Shown piece after piece: positions 3,003 to 8,211 of a DNA stretch of 64,000 bases. The stretch spans positions 1 to 64,000 of the forward strand of contig JANXBZ010000001.1 of the NCBI GenBank assembly GCA_025060475.1. Reading direction: 5' to 3'. A program made the position numbers and the translations under genes. Under the pieces are notes generated by a model, which was given only the letters and a program-made list of their open reading frames with translations, was not told where the DNA came from and searched no databases. How positions within the stretch are numbered: the stretch's first letter is position 1; the number at the start of each line of letters is the position of its first letter. The stretch comes from Dictyoglomus sp. GTDB lineage: Bacteria; Dictyoglomota; Dictyoglomia; Dictyoglomales; Dictyoglomaceae.

Positions 3003-4365
3003 ATTTATTCCCTTTGGACTTTCTATTGAAGATGTATATATATTAAGCACTAAACCTTATAATATTCAGCTTTCCCAAGAATTAGAGAAAAAAATTAAAG
3101 AGAGCAGAAAACTTTGGAAAGAAACCTTAAGAGAAAAACCCAGAAACCATGACAATTATGATAGTGTTAAATTCAAAAACTCTCTTACTCCTGAAGAAAT
3201 AAGAGCAATTATGATATTACAAGCCTATTCTTTAGCTTTAGGTTATTCTGGAGTTCGCATAGAAGTTGTAGAAAAAATATTAGAGTTTCTAAGAAAAAAT
3301 ATTATTCCTTTGATTCCAGAGAACTTATCTTTGAAGAGGAATTTAAATCCTTTAATTTTTATTGTTTATGCTCTCAAAGGAAAGGGAGAAGTCTTATATA
3401 AAAATAAGAGAATGAAGACAGAAAAAGCATTAAAGGAATCTAATACGAAATACATAGATTTAGAAGAAAATGAAATTCTAGCGCTTACAAGTGGAACTCA
3501 ATATATAGCTGGTATTTTAAGTATATATTTCATAAAAATAAAGAAACTAGGAAAACTATCAGAAATAGCTTTTGCTCTTTTTCTTGAAAATTTAAGAATA
3601 GAGGAAAAACTACTTAATTCCTTTATTTATGCATTAAAACCTCATCTTGGATTAATAAAATTTTATGAAAACCTTAGAAAACTTTTAAAGGAAAGTGAAT
3701 TTATTTTCTCTTCTGATAATCCTAAATCTCAGAACCTTTATATTCTAAACAATCTTTCTCAGGTTTTTTTTATATTTCATCAAACTATAGATTTTATGAA
3801 AAATATATTAGAAACAGAAATTAATTCTATTTCTAATAGTCCTATAATTATTCCTAAGGAAAAGTTTATTCTTTATGAAAATCTTTATGTGGAAACTCTT
3901 AGTCATATTATTGATTATCTATCTATAGTTATTGCAAACCTAAGTTACTTGTTAGAAAAAATAATAGATATAATTAAATCTAAATTTGAGCTTGATTTTC
4001 CATCTCTTTATGCTATTTATCAAAATTTATCTAAAGAAAACAAAAAGTTATCTAAACCCTCTAATAAAAGAATATTCTGTTTAAATAAATATGATTTTAT
4101 AAAACTTGAAATTAAGAATATTATTAAGCTAAAAAAAATAGTCAAAAATTGGGAAAAATTAATTACTATAAACTTCGTCTATGCAACTCATGGAATAGAT
4201 TATTACAAACCTTTAAAATGCGGTAAGGGGACAGAAATAGCATATCAATTTATAAAATCCTTAATTTCTCCAATTAAAGACAATTTACATAAAATTAAGA
4301 TATTAGAAGAAAATCTAGATAAACTTTTAAGAAAAGTAGAAGAAGAAATAGGAGAACTGTTTTAA
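2989..4365 (+). CDS. histidine/phenylalanine ammonia-lyase-like pseudoenzyme
   Basis: A 458-residue protein that by eye aligns with the HAL/PAL fold over most of its length. Matches include ALGYSGVRIEVVEKIL (lyases: RGxSGIR), PLIFIVYALKGKGEVLYKNK (lyases: APLAH...L.GEG), ILALTSGTQ (lyases: GLALINGTQ), INSISNSPII (lyases: NAVSDNPLV) and LSKENKKLSKP (lyases: ASENKALSHP). The Ala-Ser-Gly triad that cyclises to the MIO electrophile is replaced: GSVGASGDLAPL corresponds to ENLSLKRNLNPL, so the triad reads about Leu-Lys-Arg. The YGxNTGFG loop and the Arg of YSLRCQPQ are also lost. It is therefore unlikely to be a lyase and may have a regulatory or structural role. ATG 2989 overlaps phoU by 14 bases; the Shine-Dalgarno is weak. 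Confidence 0.7.
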   Translation: MEKFEFIPFGLSIEDVYILSTKPYNIQLSQELEKKIKESRKLWKETLREKPRNHDNYDSVKFKNSLTPEEIRAIMILQAYSLALGYSGVRIEVVEKILEFLRKNIIPLIPENLSLKRNLNPLIFIVYALKGKGEVLYKNKRMKTEKALKESNTKYIDLEENEILALTSGTQYIAGILSIYFIKIKKLGKLSEIAFALFLENLRIEEKLLNSFIYALKPHLGLIKFYENLRKLLKESEFIFSSDNPKSQNLYILNNLSQVFFIFHQTIDFMKNILETEINSISNSPIIIPKEKFILYENLYVETLSHIIDYLSIVIANLSYLLEKIIDIIKSKFELDFPSLYAIYQNLSKENKKLSKPSNKRIFCLNKYDFIKLEIKNIIKLKKIVKNWEKLITINFVYATHGIDYYKPLKCGKGTEIAYQFIKSLISPIKDNLHKIKILEENLDKLLRKVEEEIGELF

Positions 4366-5012
4366 ATTATAGCTCTTAAAGCATTTTTTATTACTTCTAC
4401 TCCTTGTTCCCAAGATAATAAGCCAGTATTTAAGATTAAGTGATACAATTCTGGATTATTCCAATCTACGTTATAAAATCTTTTTAGATATTCCTCCGCA
4501 GATTTATCCTTTTCTATGATCAATCTCAAAGATTCTTCTCTTGTAAGATTTCTTTCTTTCATAACATTCTTAACCCTATATTCTAAAGGAGCAATAATTC
4601 TTATATGTAATGTTTTTGGATTATCTTTTAAAAGAACTTGTGCTCCTCTACCTAATATAACTACATCTCCCCAATCTTTTAATTTTTTTATAACAGCTTG
4701 AACAAATCTTAAACCACTTTCTTCATCAAAAGTTTTAGTTATAATACTTGTAATTCCTGTAACATTATCTTTTTCTTTTACTGTAATCTCCCCTACAAAC
4801 TCCCTTCTCCTAAATAATTGTTCAAAGAATCCCTTAACTTTGTAGTTATCCTCATTAAAATCAATAACCTCAGCCTCTGAAAGTCCAGAGGATATTGCAA
4901 TTTCTGTCATTAGAAACTTGTCAAAATATCTATAATTTAAATCCCTTGCTAATTTCTCTGCAATCTTCTCACCATTACTTCCATATTGACGAGATATGGT
5001 AATAATAGCCAT
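4362..5012 (-). CDS. cytidylate kinase-like P-loop protein
   Basis: A 216-residue P-loop kinase of the cytidylate-kinase-like family. The N-terminus AIITISRQYGSNGEKIAEKL is its typical ISRQxGSxGxxIA variant of the Walker A loop. VVILGRGAQVLL near residue 113 and the lid-like RVKNVMKERNLTREES near 143 also fit. Family members are distinct from true Cmk and their substrate is not established; a nucleotide or small-metabolite kinase is the reasonable inference. It is last in the clpC-like/adenosine-kinase operon, ten bases after the preceding gene, and overlaps the convergent lyase-like gene by four bases. Confidence 0.75.
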   Translation of the reverse strand: MAIITISRQYGSNGEKIAEKLARDLNYRYFDKFLMTEIAISSGLSEAEVIDFNEDNYKVKGFFEQLFRRREFVGEITVKEKDNVTGITSIITKTFDEESGLRFVQAVIKKLKDWGDVVILGRGAQVLLKDNPKTLHIRIIAPLEYRVKNVMKERNLTREESLRLIIEKDKSAEEYLKRFYNVDWNNPELYHLILNTGLLSWEQGVEVIKNALRAII

Positions 5013-5021
5013 TTTTTTCCC

Positions 5022-5504
5022 TTATAACTTATAACCTATTTTTCGTAAGAACTCTTTTCTGTAAACAATGTCCTTTTCTTCTTCGACTCCTTTAGGTTTA
5101 ACACCATCAATTACACCTATTATTCCTCTTCCATCTCCATCTTCTACTATTACTACTTTCAACGGATTTGCAGTTGCGGCAAAGATATTAACAACCTCTG
5201 AAACATGTTTTATCGCATTTAAAACATTAATTGGATAGAGATTTCTCAAGAAGATTAAAAAGGAGTGACCTGCTCCTATCCTTTGTAAATTCTTTACTGC
5301 TAACTCTTCTAACTCCAGGTCTGTACCTACATGTCTAATCAGAGCTGGACCTGAAGATTCACAAAAAGCTAATCCAAATTTTGCACCAGGTACAGAACTA
5401 ACAATTGTTTCATAAATATCTTCTACAGTCTTAATAAAATGGGCTTGTCCCAAAATAAGATTAACTTCATTAGGTTTCTCTATCTCCACTATTTGAAATT
5501 CCAT
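5022..5504 (-). CDS. adenosine-specific kinase family protein
   Basis: A 160-residue protein of the small adenosine-specific kinase family described from thermophilic archaea and bacteria. Visible signatures are FGLAFCESSGPALIRH near residues 63-78, RIGAGHSFLIFLRNLYPINV and FAATANPLKVVIVEDGDGRG near the C-terminus. It lacks a P-loop, as the family does. Function, by family knowledge, is adenosine binding or phosphorylation in nucleoside salvage. A strong Shine-Dalgarno (AAGGAGG) precedes the ATG. It lies between the Hsp100 gene, 16 bases upstream, and the cytidylate-kinase-like gene, so two nucleotide-salvage-type proteins follow a protein-quality-control ATPase. Confidence 0.8.
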   Translation of the reverse strand: MEFQIVEIEKPNEVNLILGQAHFIKTVEDIYETIVSSVPGAKFGLAFCESSGPALIRHVGTDLELEELAVKNLQRIGAGHSFLIFLRNLYPINVLNAIKHVSEVVNIFAATANPLKVVIVEDGDGRGIIGVIDGVKPKGVEEEKDIVYRKEFLRKIGYKL

Positions 5505-5520: not shown

Positions 5521-8211
5521 TTAAGACTTAGCTTTTATTTCCTCCTCTTCTTTAATCTTCTCAAACTTTATTCTCTTTTCATTCTCATCGTATGTCACAA
5601 AAATTTTATCACCTTCAGAAATCTCTCCCTTTAGCATCGCTTCAGCAATTTTTGTTTCTAATTCATTTCTTATTTTTCTCTTAAGTTCTCTTGCACCAAA
5701 TTCTGGTTGATATCCGATTTTTGCAAGATAGGAAATAAGAGATTCATCAAAGTTTAATTCTATTCCTTGTCCCTTAGCCACTTTTCTTACCCTCTCTAGT
5801 TGTAATTTTACAATTTCTTTAATTTGTTCTTGAGTTAAAGCATGGAATATTATTATTTCATCAATTCTATTTAAAAATTCAGGTCTAAAATATTTTCTTA
5901 ATAGATTCATAAGCTTTTCTTTTAACTGTTCATAAGTTAACTTCTCCTTTTCAGGAGCAGTAAGGTTATATTGAATTATATCAGATCCTATATTACTTGT
6001 TGCTATGATTATCGTATTTGTAAAATCCACAGTTCTTCCCTTTCCATCAGTTAACCTTCCTTCATCAAAAACTTGAAGTAAAATATTATGAACATCAGGA
6101 TGAGCTTTTTCAATTTCGTCTAATAAAATAACACTATATGGCCTTCTTCTTACCTTTTCTGTTAACTGTCCCCCCTCCTCATACCCCACATATCCTGGAG
6201 GAGCACCAATTAATCTTGAAACAGTATGTCTTTCCATATACTCACTCATATCAATTCTAATTATAGCATCCTCATCTCCAAAGATTGCCCAAGCAAGAGC
6301 TTTTGCTAATTCAGTTTTTCCAACTCCTGTGGGACCTAAAAATAAGAAAGTAGCAATAGGACGGTTTCCTTCTCTCAAACCTGCTCTTGATAGTCTTATA
6401 GCATTAGCAACTGCCTTTACTGCTTCTTCTTGTGCAACAACTCTTTCATGAAGTTTTTCTTCTAATTTCAACAATCTCTCTCTTTCGTCAGTAGATAATT
6501 CAGAAACTGGAATACCTGTTAGAGTAGAAATTATTTCTGCTATATGTTTTGCTTTAACTTCTGCAGATTCTGATGCTACCATTTTTTTCCAATTTTCCTC
6601 TGCATTTCTTAACTCCTCTTCTAACTTTTTAATCTGTTCCTCTAATTCCTTTGCCTTGTCAAACTGTTTTCTTGATGTAGCATACTCTTGTTCTCTCTTC
6701 AACTGTTTTAACTTTGATTCTATTTCATGAATTTCTGAAGGACGAGAAGTCAAGCTGATACGAACTTTAGCACATGCTTGATCAATAAGATCAATAGCTT
6801 TATCTGGAAGATATCTATTAGTAATATACCTGTCAGAGAGAACTGCAGCAGCAATTAAAGCCTCATCAGTAATTCTAACTTTATGATGAGCTTCAAATCT
6901 ATCTCTTAACCCCCTCAATATATTAATAGTTTGTTCCACAGTGGGTTCTGAAATAAAAACAGGCTGAAATCTTCTTTCTAAAGCAGCATCTTTTTCTATA
7001 TATTTTTGGTACTCATTTAAGGTTGTCGCTCCTATAAGATGAAGTTCTCCCCTTGCTAAAGCAGGTTTGAAAACATTAGCAAGATCCATTGAGCTTTCCC
7101 CTGCTGATCCTGCTCCTACAATAGTATGTATCTCGTCAATAAATATTATTAACCTATCTTGATTTGCAATAATCTCATCCAATATCTGTTTAACTCTTTC
7201 TTCGAACTCTCCTCTATATTTTGTTCCTGATATTAAAGAATTTATGTTTAATTCAACTAATCTTTTATTTCTTAAAACCTCAGGAACTTCTCCCTTAACA
7301 ATTCTCTGAGCTAAACCTTCCACTATCGCTGTTTTTCCTACCCCAGGTTCTCCTATAAGAACTGGATTATTCTTTTTTCTTCTTGCTAGAATTTCTATTA
7401 TTGTCTCAATTTCCTTTGCTCTTCCGATTACAGGATCTAATTTCCCTTGTCTTGCAAGTTCTGTTAAATCCCTAGAATATTTATCTAAATTTGGAGTCAT
7501 CATAGAAGATCTTGCTTTTATTTCTTCTTTTCCTTCGCCCACTATATTTATTACTGCTCTTCTTATATCTTGAGGAGTTAGACCAAATTTTCTTAAAATA
7601 TCATAGGCAAATCCATCTGGTTCTTCAGAAAGACCAATTAATAAATGTTCTGGACCAATATAGTTATGTCCCAAATCTCGAGAAGCCCAAAAAGATCTTT
7701 CTAGAGCGCTTTTTAAACGAGGAGAAACTTCCATCTCAATATTTTCTCCTTGAGGAGCTTTAAAAGTTCCTTTTGGAGCATTATATTCTATATACCCTTT
7801 TAAATCTTGAGGTGTTATATTAAAATGTCTTAAAACCTCTTGAACAATCTCATTTTCTGTTAACGCATATAAAAGATGTTCCGTATCTACCTCTGATTTT
7901 CCAAACTCAATAGCTTTTCTTCCTGCTTTTTGGAGATACTCTTTGGCACTGTCACTAAGATATAAGGAAAGATCTATAGCTTCCCTATCAAATCTTTCAC
8001 TTTCAAAGGGACCAAATTCTTCTCCAAAAAAGTCCTTGAAAAAATCACCCCAAAAAAGAGATTCTAAAGGAGAAAAACTTCTCTCTTTCTGTCTATATTT
8101 AGCATAACAAACCTCACATAGATCAAGAGTTTGTTTTTTTCCACTTTTTATTATGGATACTCTGATTGTTGCAACTCTTTGTCCACATCTGTCACATGTT
8201 TTCTTAGACAT
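5521..8211 (-). CDS. clpC: Hsp100 Clp ATPase with N-terminal zinc finger (ClpC/ClpE-like)
   Basis: An 896-residue double-AAA+ unfoldase. Order: a four-Cys finger (Cys 6, 9, 32, 35) like those of McsA and ClpE; a Phe-rich linker; two Clp-N repeats (about 85-220); AAA1 with GEPGVGKTA and IIFIDEIHTIVG; a short UVR-like coiled middle domain (about 500-545), ClpC-sized not ClpB-sized; and AAA2 with GPTGVGKTELAKALAW and a C-terminal sensor-2 domain (GARELKRKI). Between TSNIGSDIIQ and FRPEFLNRIDEI, where ClpA/ClpC carry the (I/V)G(F/L) ClpP-docking tripeptide, I see none. It may work without ClpP or dock differently. It heads an operon with two kinases, behind an extended -10 promoter and a clear AGGAGGTG ribosome site. 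Confidence 0.85.
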   Translation of the reverse strand: MSKKTCDRCGQRVATIRVSIIKSGKKQTLDLCEVCYAKYRQKERSFSPLESLFWGDFFKDFFGEEFGPFESERFDREAIDLSLYLSDSAKEYLQKAGRKAIEFGKSEVDTEHLLYALTENEIVQEVLRHFNITPQDLKGYIEYNAPKGTFKAPQGENIEMEVSPRLKSALERSFWASRDLGHNYIGPEHLLIGLSEEPDGFAYDILRKFGLTPQDIRRAVINIVGEGKEEIKARSSMMTPNLDKYSRDLTELARQGKLDPVIGRAKEIETIIEILARRKKNNPVLIGEPGVGKTAIVEGLAQRIVKGEVPEVLRNKRLVELNINSLISGTKYRGEFEERVKQILDEIIANQDRLIIFIDEIHTIVGAGSAGESSMDLANVFKPALARGELHLIGATTLNEYQKYIEKDAALERRFQPVFISEPTVEQTINILRGLRDRFEAHHKVRITDEALIAAAVLSDRYITNRYLPDKAIDLIDQACAKVRISLTSRPSEIHEIESKLKQLKREQEYATSRKQFDKAKELEEQIKKLEEELRNAEENWKKMVASESAEVKAKHIAEIISTLTGIPVSELSTDERERLLKLEEKLHERVVAQEEAVKAVANAIRLSRAGLREGNRPIATFLFLGPTGVGKTELAKALAWAIFGDEDAIIRIDMSEYMERHTVSRLIGAPPGYVGYEEGGQLTEKVRRRPYSVILLDEIEKAHPDVHNILLQVFDEGRLTDGKGRTVDFTNTIIIATSNIGSDIIQYNLTAPEKEKLTYEQLKEKLMNLLRKYFRPEFLNRIDEIIIFHALTQEQIKEIVKLQLERVRKVAKGQGIELNFDESLISYLAKIGYQPEFGARELKRKIRNELETKIAEAMLKGEISEGDKIFVTYDENEKRIKFEKIKEEEEIKAKS

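Follow-up and report, generated by a model that had tools for sequence, protein, structure and literature searches.

We found that the analysed stretch of Dictyoglomus sp. DNA (the window, 64,000 nucleotides of contig JANXBZ010000001.1) encodes a further member of the ClpG/ClpK class of Hsp100 proteins. This is an already-known type: a 2010 account characterized it by its extended N-terminus with a putative zinc finger, its linker of intermediate length and its missing ClpP tripeptide, and already listed Dictyoglomus thermophilum as having a homologue (Bojer et al., PMC2976762). The initial annotation had presented the protein as a hybrid Hsp100; that description gives way to the ClpK/ClpG class, which has the same feature set. 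Our literature search found no mention of ClpG together with Dictyoglomus, the homologue appearing there under the name ClpK. Taken by itself the protein is ordinary, and its interest is that of a chromosomal ClpG in a genome where no ClpB was found. By analogy with characterised relatives it is very probably a ClpG/ClpK-type stand-alone disaggregase, and it probably takes ClpB's place in the source genome.

The gene is an intact open reading frame on the reverse strand, running from an ATG at 8211 to a stop at 5521, and its product is an Hsp100 of 896 residues with two AAA rings. Pfam recognizes two Clp_N stretches, AAA, AAA_lid_9, AAA_2 and D2-small domains in it, and a motif scan recovered Walker A and Walker B in both rings together with both pore tyrosines (Y332 and Y674). 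The M segment, at 76 residues, has the commonest length among the ClpC-type proteins surveyed below (133 of 205); hence, the two Clp-N repeats and the short ClpC-like middle domain of the initial annotation hold.

Table. Features of the clp gene, its product and the two genes downstream of it, in window coordinates
Feature	Coordinates	Strand	Basis
clpG/clpK-type gene, whole open reading frame with stop, 896 residues	5521..8211	-	ORF, Pfam, NCBIfam, tblastn, tree
N1 putative zinc finger core, residues 6-35 (C6, C9, C32, C35)	8107..8196	-	sequence; PDB 8p66 top by phmmer and Foldseek
Spacer, residues 47-84, starting with the SPLESLF motif common in ClpG proteins	7960..8073	-	alignments
N2, two Clp_N repeats, about residues 85-225	7537..7959	-	Pfam
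AAA1, about residues 242-485; Walker A 287-294, pore Y332, Walker B ending D359-E360	6757..7488	-	Pfam and motif scan
Short M domain, about residues 490-550	6562..6744	-	aligned segment of 76 residues
AAA2, about residues 575-790; Walker A 626-633, pore Y674	5842..6489	-	Pfam and motif scan
Region of ClpC's ClpP-docking loop, residues 738-780; no docking tripeptide	5872..6000	-	alignment, motif scan, model
D2-small domain, residues 792-871	5599..5838	-	Pfam
Adenosine-specific kinase family gene (PF04008), next downstream of the clp gene	5022..5504	-	Pfam
Cytidylate-kinase-like gene (PF13189), third gene	4362..5012	-	Pfam

The best NCBIfam models for the protein are those of the ClpG disaggregase (1293.5 bits) and ClpK (1277.5 bits), followed by ClpB (1025.5 bits). 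The first two scores lie under the curated cut-off of 1900 bits (NF033607, NF033606), which we do not take to exclude membership because these are narrow exception models. A tblastn search against plasmids matched residues 1-875 to enterobacterial ClpK at 61% identity and also found a Microvirga protein at 65%, and in alignments the finger, the SPLESLF spacer and the Clp_N region are in register with those of ClpG. For a tree we selected 69 rows from the 132 matches (loop cut out, quick search without bootstrap). It separates the protein from the ClpC of its own genome and places it in a ClpG clade of 43 rows (SH-aLRT 100) that includes the ClpK of E. coli and the protein of P. aeruginosa PA7; within that clade it sits among 14 rows of Dictyoglomaceae and Bipolaricaulota (support 81). 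Besides this grouping, it shares with ClpK/ClpG the intermediate ClpC-like linker and the missing ClpP tripeptide. The other Hsp100 classes do not accommodate it: the [LIVMP]G[FL] docking motif of the ClpC loop is absent; of the zinc finger and docking loop that mark ClpE only the finger is present; and the M segment is too short for ClpB, with a TIGR03346 score of 1025.5 bits against the equivalog score of 1232.1. A ClpB paralogue is ruled out by the short M domain and the tree.

The source genome (1.72 Mb, 99.56% complete) yielded only two Hsp100 matches to the window protein, namely itself and a ClpC. ClpB was not found in it, the best match to the ClpB model (E = 6.7e-162) falling far under the cut-off. 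The ClpC gene, whose product has LGF in its loop, clusters with genes for a McsA-like protein (152 residues), a McsB-like protein (349 residues) and RadA, and the genes for ClpP and ClpX are adjacent to each other beside trigger factor (names by sequence reading, for ClpP also by Pfam). The statement of the initial annotation that no mcsB or ctsR is nearby agrees with what was seen around the clp gene, but mcsA and mcsB do occur at another site of the genome, next to an ordinary clpC; the annotation had also asked for ClpP and McsB to be looked for, and both ClpP and a McsB-like protein are encoded. McsB-family matches were obtained in 8 of 11 genomes, including all seven Dictyoglomaceae, although the 14 control genomes, B. 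subtilis among them, gave none. CtsR gave no match in the 11 genomes, the source genome included; this negative is weak because the B. subtilis control was also without a match, and among the controls only L. lactis had one. The mcsA-mcsB-clpC-radA cluster at L012:3331-8694 has no CtsR match. The McsB-family score, about 180 bits in the sister genus, is down to 82-119 bits in the genus of the source genome, and judging from these scores the kinase may be diverging or decaying.

The clp gene is present in five of the seven Dictyoglomaceae genomes (G000-G004), all five keeping the order of clp, adenosine-specific kinase and cytidylate-kinase-like genes; neither such a clp gene nor ClpB was found in the other two (G005 and G006, 86% and 72% complete). 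No other ClpG locus in the scan showed the two-kinase order, though the flanks of many of these loci are short. A search of the 64-kb window for the CIRCE operator returned 0 matches with up to three mismatches and thus gave no sign of heat induction of the clp gene. Elsewhere in the window, a 230-residue open reading frame at 1635-2327 includes a stretch rich in cysteine (CILCNKRKGRRYCKSVNRMICSECCGEKR); at E 0.001 this frame matched neither Pfam nor NCBIfam models.

No ClpB having been found, ClpG is probably the main disaggregase of this genome. It could conceivably be one that needs DnaK, as ClpB does: DnaK is present in 11 of 11 genomes tested, including the source genome, in which no ClpB was found to use it. 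However, the M domain of the window protein is short, whereas ClpB's M domain is what contacts DnaK (PMC5561102), and N1 is reported to confer on ClpG an aggregate binding of its own (PMC10641755). We accordingly consider a requirement for DnaK unlikely and favor a stand-alone disaggregase.

The central feature of such a disaggregase would be a ring uncoupled from ClpP. The initial annotation described AAA2 as having no (I/V)G(F/L) between TSNIGSDIIQ and FRPEFLNRID, and both the alignment and our motif scan agree: the sole [LIVMP]G[FL] in the whole protein is an IGL at residue 192, inside Clp_N, and AAA2 has none. As positive controls, the same scan recovered LGF in the loop of the ClpC from the same genome (residue 677 of the open frame) and IGF in ClpX (residue 260). 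The earlier, narrower motif would miss the LGF of this ClpC, which leaves the conclusion on the window protein unaffected. The accompanying view that the AAA2 loop is more like that of ClpB survives in part: the docking tripeptide is indeed lacking, but the TSN-to-FRPEFL segment, at 43 residues, falls between the ClpB example (37 residues, L127) and the ClpC example (47 residues, from the same genome), and segment length by itself fails to split loop-less from loop-bearing proteins. A full-length AlphaFold model, built on an alignment (A3) of the window protein with 26 of 31 located proteins, is weak (pLDDT 66.7, pTM 0.37) and served only for a look at the loop, whose region it predicts as a helix (743-751), a coil and a second helix (760-774). 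A broken gene or a chance loss of the motif is ruled out by the intact reading frame and by the same loop-less segment in four other Dictyoglomaceae orthologues.

Five ClpG-like loci (L055, L059, L060, L063 and L078) have IGF or VGF at the loop position, and all three that were included in the tree nest inside the ClpG clade. Because of this nesting, the docking motif can reappear within ClpG, and it is possible, as far as the motif can tell, that ClpP docking was regained at these loci. Together with the similar finger of ClpE, which works with ClpP (PMC13125188), a loop segment longer than ClpB's and a 2013 paper whose title attributes both ClpP-dependent and ClpP-independent activities to the clpK locus, these relatives would be compatible with a ClpC/ClpE-like unfoldase that feeds ClpP through a non-canonical contact, its substrates being degraded. 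Such a role is distinctly unlikely, however, given the absence of the tripeptide from the window protein and most of the ClpG rows listed, and the presence in the genome of two canonical ClpP partners, ClpX and ClpC.

The N-terminal finger, with the pattern C6-x2-C9-x22-C32-x2-C35, forms a putative zinc site. A phmmer search of the finger against the PDB placed the ClpG/ClpK N1 domain (8p66) first (E = 0.0011), ClpE next (0.015) and McsA fifth (0.35). Foldseek, with a predicted model of residues 1-80 (pLDDT 66.4, residues 1-40 being in blocks of 78-86), likewise ranked 8p66 first (probability 1.00, E 0.021), which is consistent with an N1 domain of the ClpK/ClpG kind; the second and third matches were to the Lsr2 dimerisation domain (probability 0.99), with TM-scores above that of 8p66 and 20% identity as against 35% for 8p66. 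In the solved structure of ClpG N1, the zinc site is required, V17 and L21 are crucial to substrate binding, and natural variation to Gln occurs at the L21 site (PMC10641755). V18 of the window protein aligns with V17 of P. aeruginosa ClpG and K22 with L21, and the fourth zinc ligand of most relatives in our alignments is Cys, Asp or His.

The resemblance of this Cys4 finger to McsA and ClpE, pointed out in the initial annotation, is real: N1 is described as homologous to the ends of ClpE and McsA (PMC10641755), the PDB match to ClpE has E = 0.015, and the NCBIfam McsA model matches at E = 1.5e-4 (21.6 bits, under its cut-off of 210, and over residues 5-38 only); the best match is nevertheless the ClpG N1. 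The idea built on it, a fusion in which a McsA-like finger in cis is the receptor for the kinase McsB and regulates a ClpC body, keeps in its favor the homology of the two fingers (PMC10641755) and the McsB-like protein in the genome, but is rejected as highly improbable, since a free McsA-like protein adjoins mcsB and clpC in a separate cluster, so that the system has not simply moved in cis, the finger is closest to ClpG N1, and G106 and G244, which group with Bipolaricaulota, have the finger with no McsB match (a weak point, as the B. subtilis control likewise gave no match in that search).

As a ClpG/ClpK-type disaggregase, and on the precedence of the stand-alone function of ClpG and ClpL (PMC10641755, PMC11006417), the window protein would assemble as a hexamer, in which several N1 zinc fingers, via their beta-strand, might grip hydrophobic patches on aggregates by avidity. 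The two AAA rings would then thread chains out of the aggregate, independently of DnaK and ClpP, and because the ring has no ClpP-docking motif, these chains would be released to refold with no delivery to a protease. ClpC (with McsA/McsB) and ClpX would supply ClpP in this genome, and ClpG would separately replace ClpB. Counting against the ClpG reading are the C-terminal extension, which reaches only 25 residues past the D2-small match, whereas ClpG carries such an extension (PMC11006417), the K22 at the L21 site, the ClpG/ClpK scores below the 1900-bit cut-off and the Lsr2 TM-scores above that of 8p66.

Our survey also points to a wider pattern, in which ClpC-type proteins with no docking motif go with the absence of ClpB. 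In a first set, such loop-less proteins were seen in 24 of 70 ClpB-lacking genomes versus 1 of 108 ClpB-bearing and 0 of 3 ambiguous ones; by family the figures are 15 of 52, 1 of 91 and 0 of 3 (Fisher p = 1.9e-10 by genome and 6.8e-7 by family, values that are too small because the rows are related). In a second set, with the expectation fixed beforehand, the counts were 9 of 24 versus 1 of 40 (p = 3.6e-4) and, for newly sampled families only, 3 of 9 versus 0 of 20. The two ClpB-bearing exceptions (G103 and G369) belong to one genus, and both carry a true ClpG and a loop-bearing ClpC. Of the 24 first-set genomes with a loop-less protein, 18 also contributed a loop-bearing ClpC-type one to the rows. 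Among loop-less rows, the finger was called in 8 of 25 in the first set, each of the eight being a ClpG, and in 3 of 10 in the second set; the finger rule missed L020, whose finger is visible in the alignment.

The motif state behind these counts was read in 205 ClpC-type proteins of 181 genomes (208 loci, the three truncated ones being dropped), and a G followed by F, L or Y in the loop was scored as loop-bearing. This rule scored L022 (EGF) and L344 (GY) as loop-bearing though their family mates are loop-less, which works against the pattern (the call for L022 is probably false), and likewise the ATGF of G114, which works for it. ClpB status was assigned by the best E-value to TIGR03346: genomes with a value above 0 were taken as lacking ClpB (85 of 290) and the other 205 as bearing it, the curated ClpB cut-off being passed by only 176 of the 290. 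Six ambiguous genomes (G009, G037, G086, G087, G222 and G246) were set aside, three of which were sampled. Among the other 79 ClpB-lacking genomes, 70 entered, six had no ClpC-type protein and three had truncated ones only; 108 of the 205 ClpB-bearing genomes entered, and about 20 of the 97 outside have a long ClpC-type match by E-value. Up to three candidates per genome were scored in one search and up to two in another; the counts are among the matches listed. The second set comprises 65 of 96 new genomes with a best match of E < about 1e-190 (76 loci, two truncated ones dropped), of which 37 pass the ClpB cut-off; it shares many families with the first, and the families of the survey are not independent events.

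A tree built from 84 of these 205 proteins (loop cut out, quick search without bootstrap) gathers the 25 loop-less rows into one 28-row group with L022, L031 and L037 (support 87), and loop state changes three times on it, compared with a mean of about 21.6 in shuffled data (0 of 500 shuffles were as low). A single loop-less clade (the 25 rows and L022, i.e., 26 versus 58) is not rejected by the AU test (p = 0.68); the constrained tree improves on the free quick one by 12.2 log units, and hence the latter is not fully optimised. Tentatively, and with slightly less than even confidence, we propose that the loop-less family is old, stems from ClpC, lost its ClpP-docking loop about once and took ClpB's role where ClpB is absent, ClpG being one of its branches. 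The lineages concerned perhaps include many deep-branching thermophiles. It is also conceivable, though we would stop just short of giving it an even chance, that such genomes often keep two ClpC-type machines, a loop-less one for rescue and a loop-bearing one for destruction.

Several observations count against a strict rule. No loop-less protein was seen in 46 of the 70 and 15 of the 24 ClpB-lacking genomes, from which it follows that ClpB loss needs none; ClpG stands beside ClpB in G103, and neither was found in the incomplete genomes G005 and G006. In the literature, the loop-lacking ClpIb of Actinomycetota coexists with ClpB and ClpC (PMC10149685), and Listeria is reported to have both ClpB and ClpL (PMC11006417). 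For ClpL alone, a link to ClpB absence in Gram-positive bacteria has already been made (PMC11006417); a general link for loop-less ClpC-type proteins was not found in the open-licence literature searched.

Some individual loci merit mention in their own right. L021, L022, L025, L028, L032, L034, L036, L039 and others are ClpC-type proteins of ClpB-lacking genomes with no docking motif (L022 by its sibling) and no finger call, and L021 and L022 retain a phenylalanine-rich stretch resembling the ClpG spacer. In L020/L144 (G052) and L324/L360 (G327), a finger-bearing loop-less protein is encoded close to a loop-bearing ClpC, on one contig and in the same orientation. ClpG further occurs in records named Thermaerobacter, Bathyarchaeota, Euryarchaeota and Saccharibacteria (L057, L067, L070, L115 and several loci of Saccharibacteria MAGs), reflecting either wide transfer or mis-binned contigs; for L057, from the Thermaerobacter marianensis MAG, an error of binning is possible.

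A question already in print is which machine dissolves aggregates in Gram-positive species with neither ClpB nor ClpG (PMC8129007); the wider pattern carries it to other lineages and supplies candidate proteins. The pattern is relevant, too, to where the stress-tolerance island came from, a point described as so far unknown (PMC8290217): if the proposal is true, the ClpG on the stress-tolerance islands of Proteobacteria would derive from loop-less stock.

Among known systems, ClpK of Klebsiella and E. coli plasmids, from the transmissible locus of stress tolerance, is alike in its extended N-terminus with a finger, its intermediate linker and its reported lack of the tripeptide (PMC2976762). 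It differs in having a Cys3His rather than a Cys4 finger and a longer spacer and C-terminus; moreover, two kinase-family genes come after the window gene, none of the six neighboring proteins scanned is Hsp20, FtsH or HdeD, and the genome is one where ClpB was not found. P. aeruginosa ClpG has the same N1 (8p66), N2, two AAA domains, short M domain and tree clade, whereas the window protein has C35 for H34, K22 for L21 and a shorter C-terminal extension. ClpE is similar in its N-terminal zinc finger and short M domain, the linker being like that of ClpC, ClpE and ClpL (PMC2976762), but it partners ClpP (PMC13125188), unlike the window protein, which has no docking motif and groups with ClpG. 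ClpIb of Actinomycetota, likened here from its description, also has a short M domain and a docking loop cut to about five residues; it is, however, reported beside ClpB and ClpC and with a variable N-terminal domain (PMC10149685). Finally, ClpL resembles the window protein as a stand-alone disaggregase described as having no ClpP motif, with 45% identity over residues 189-860 (tblastn) and a different N-terminal domain, and it is the central disaggregase in L. gasseri, likewise a species without ClpB (PMC11006417).
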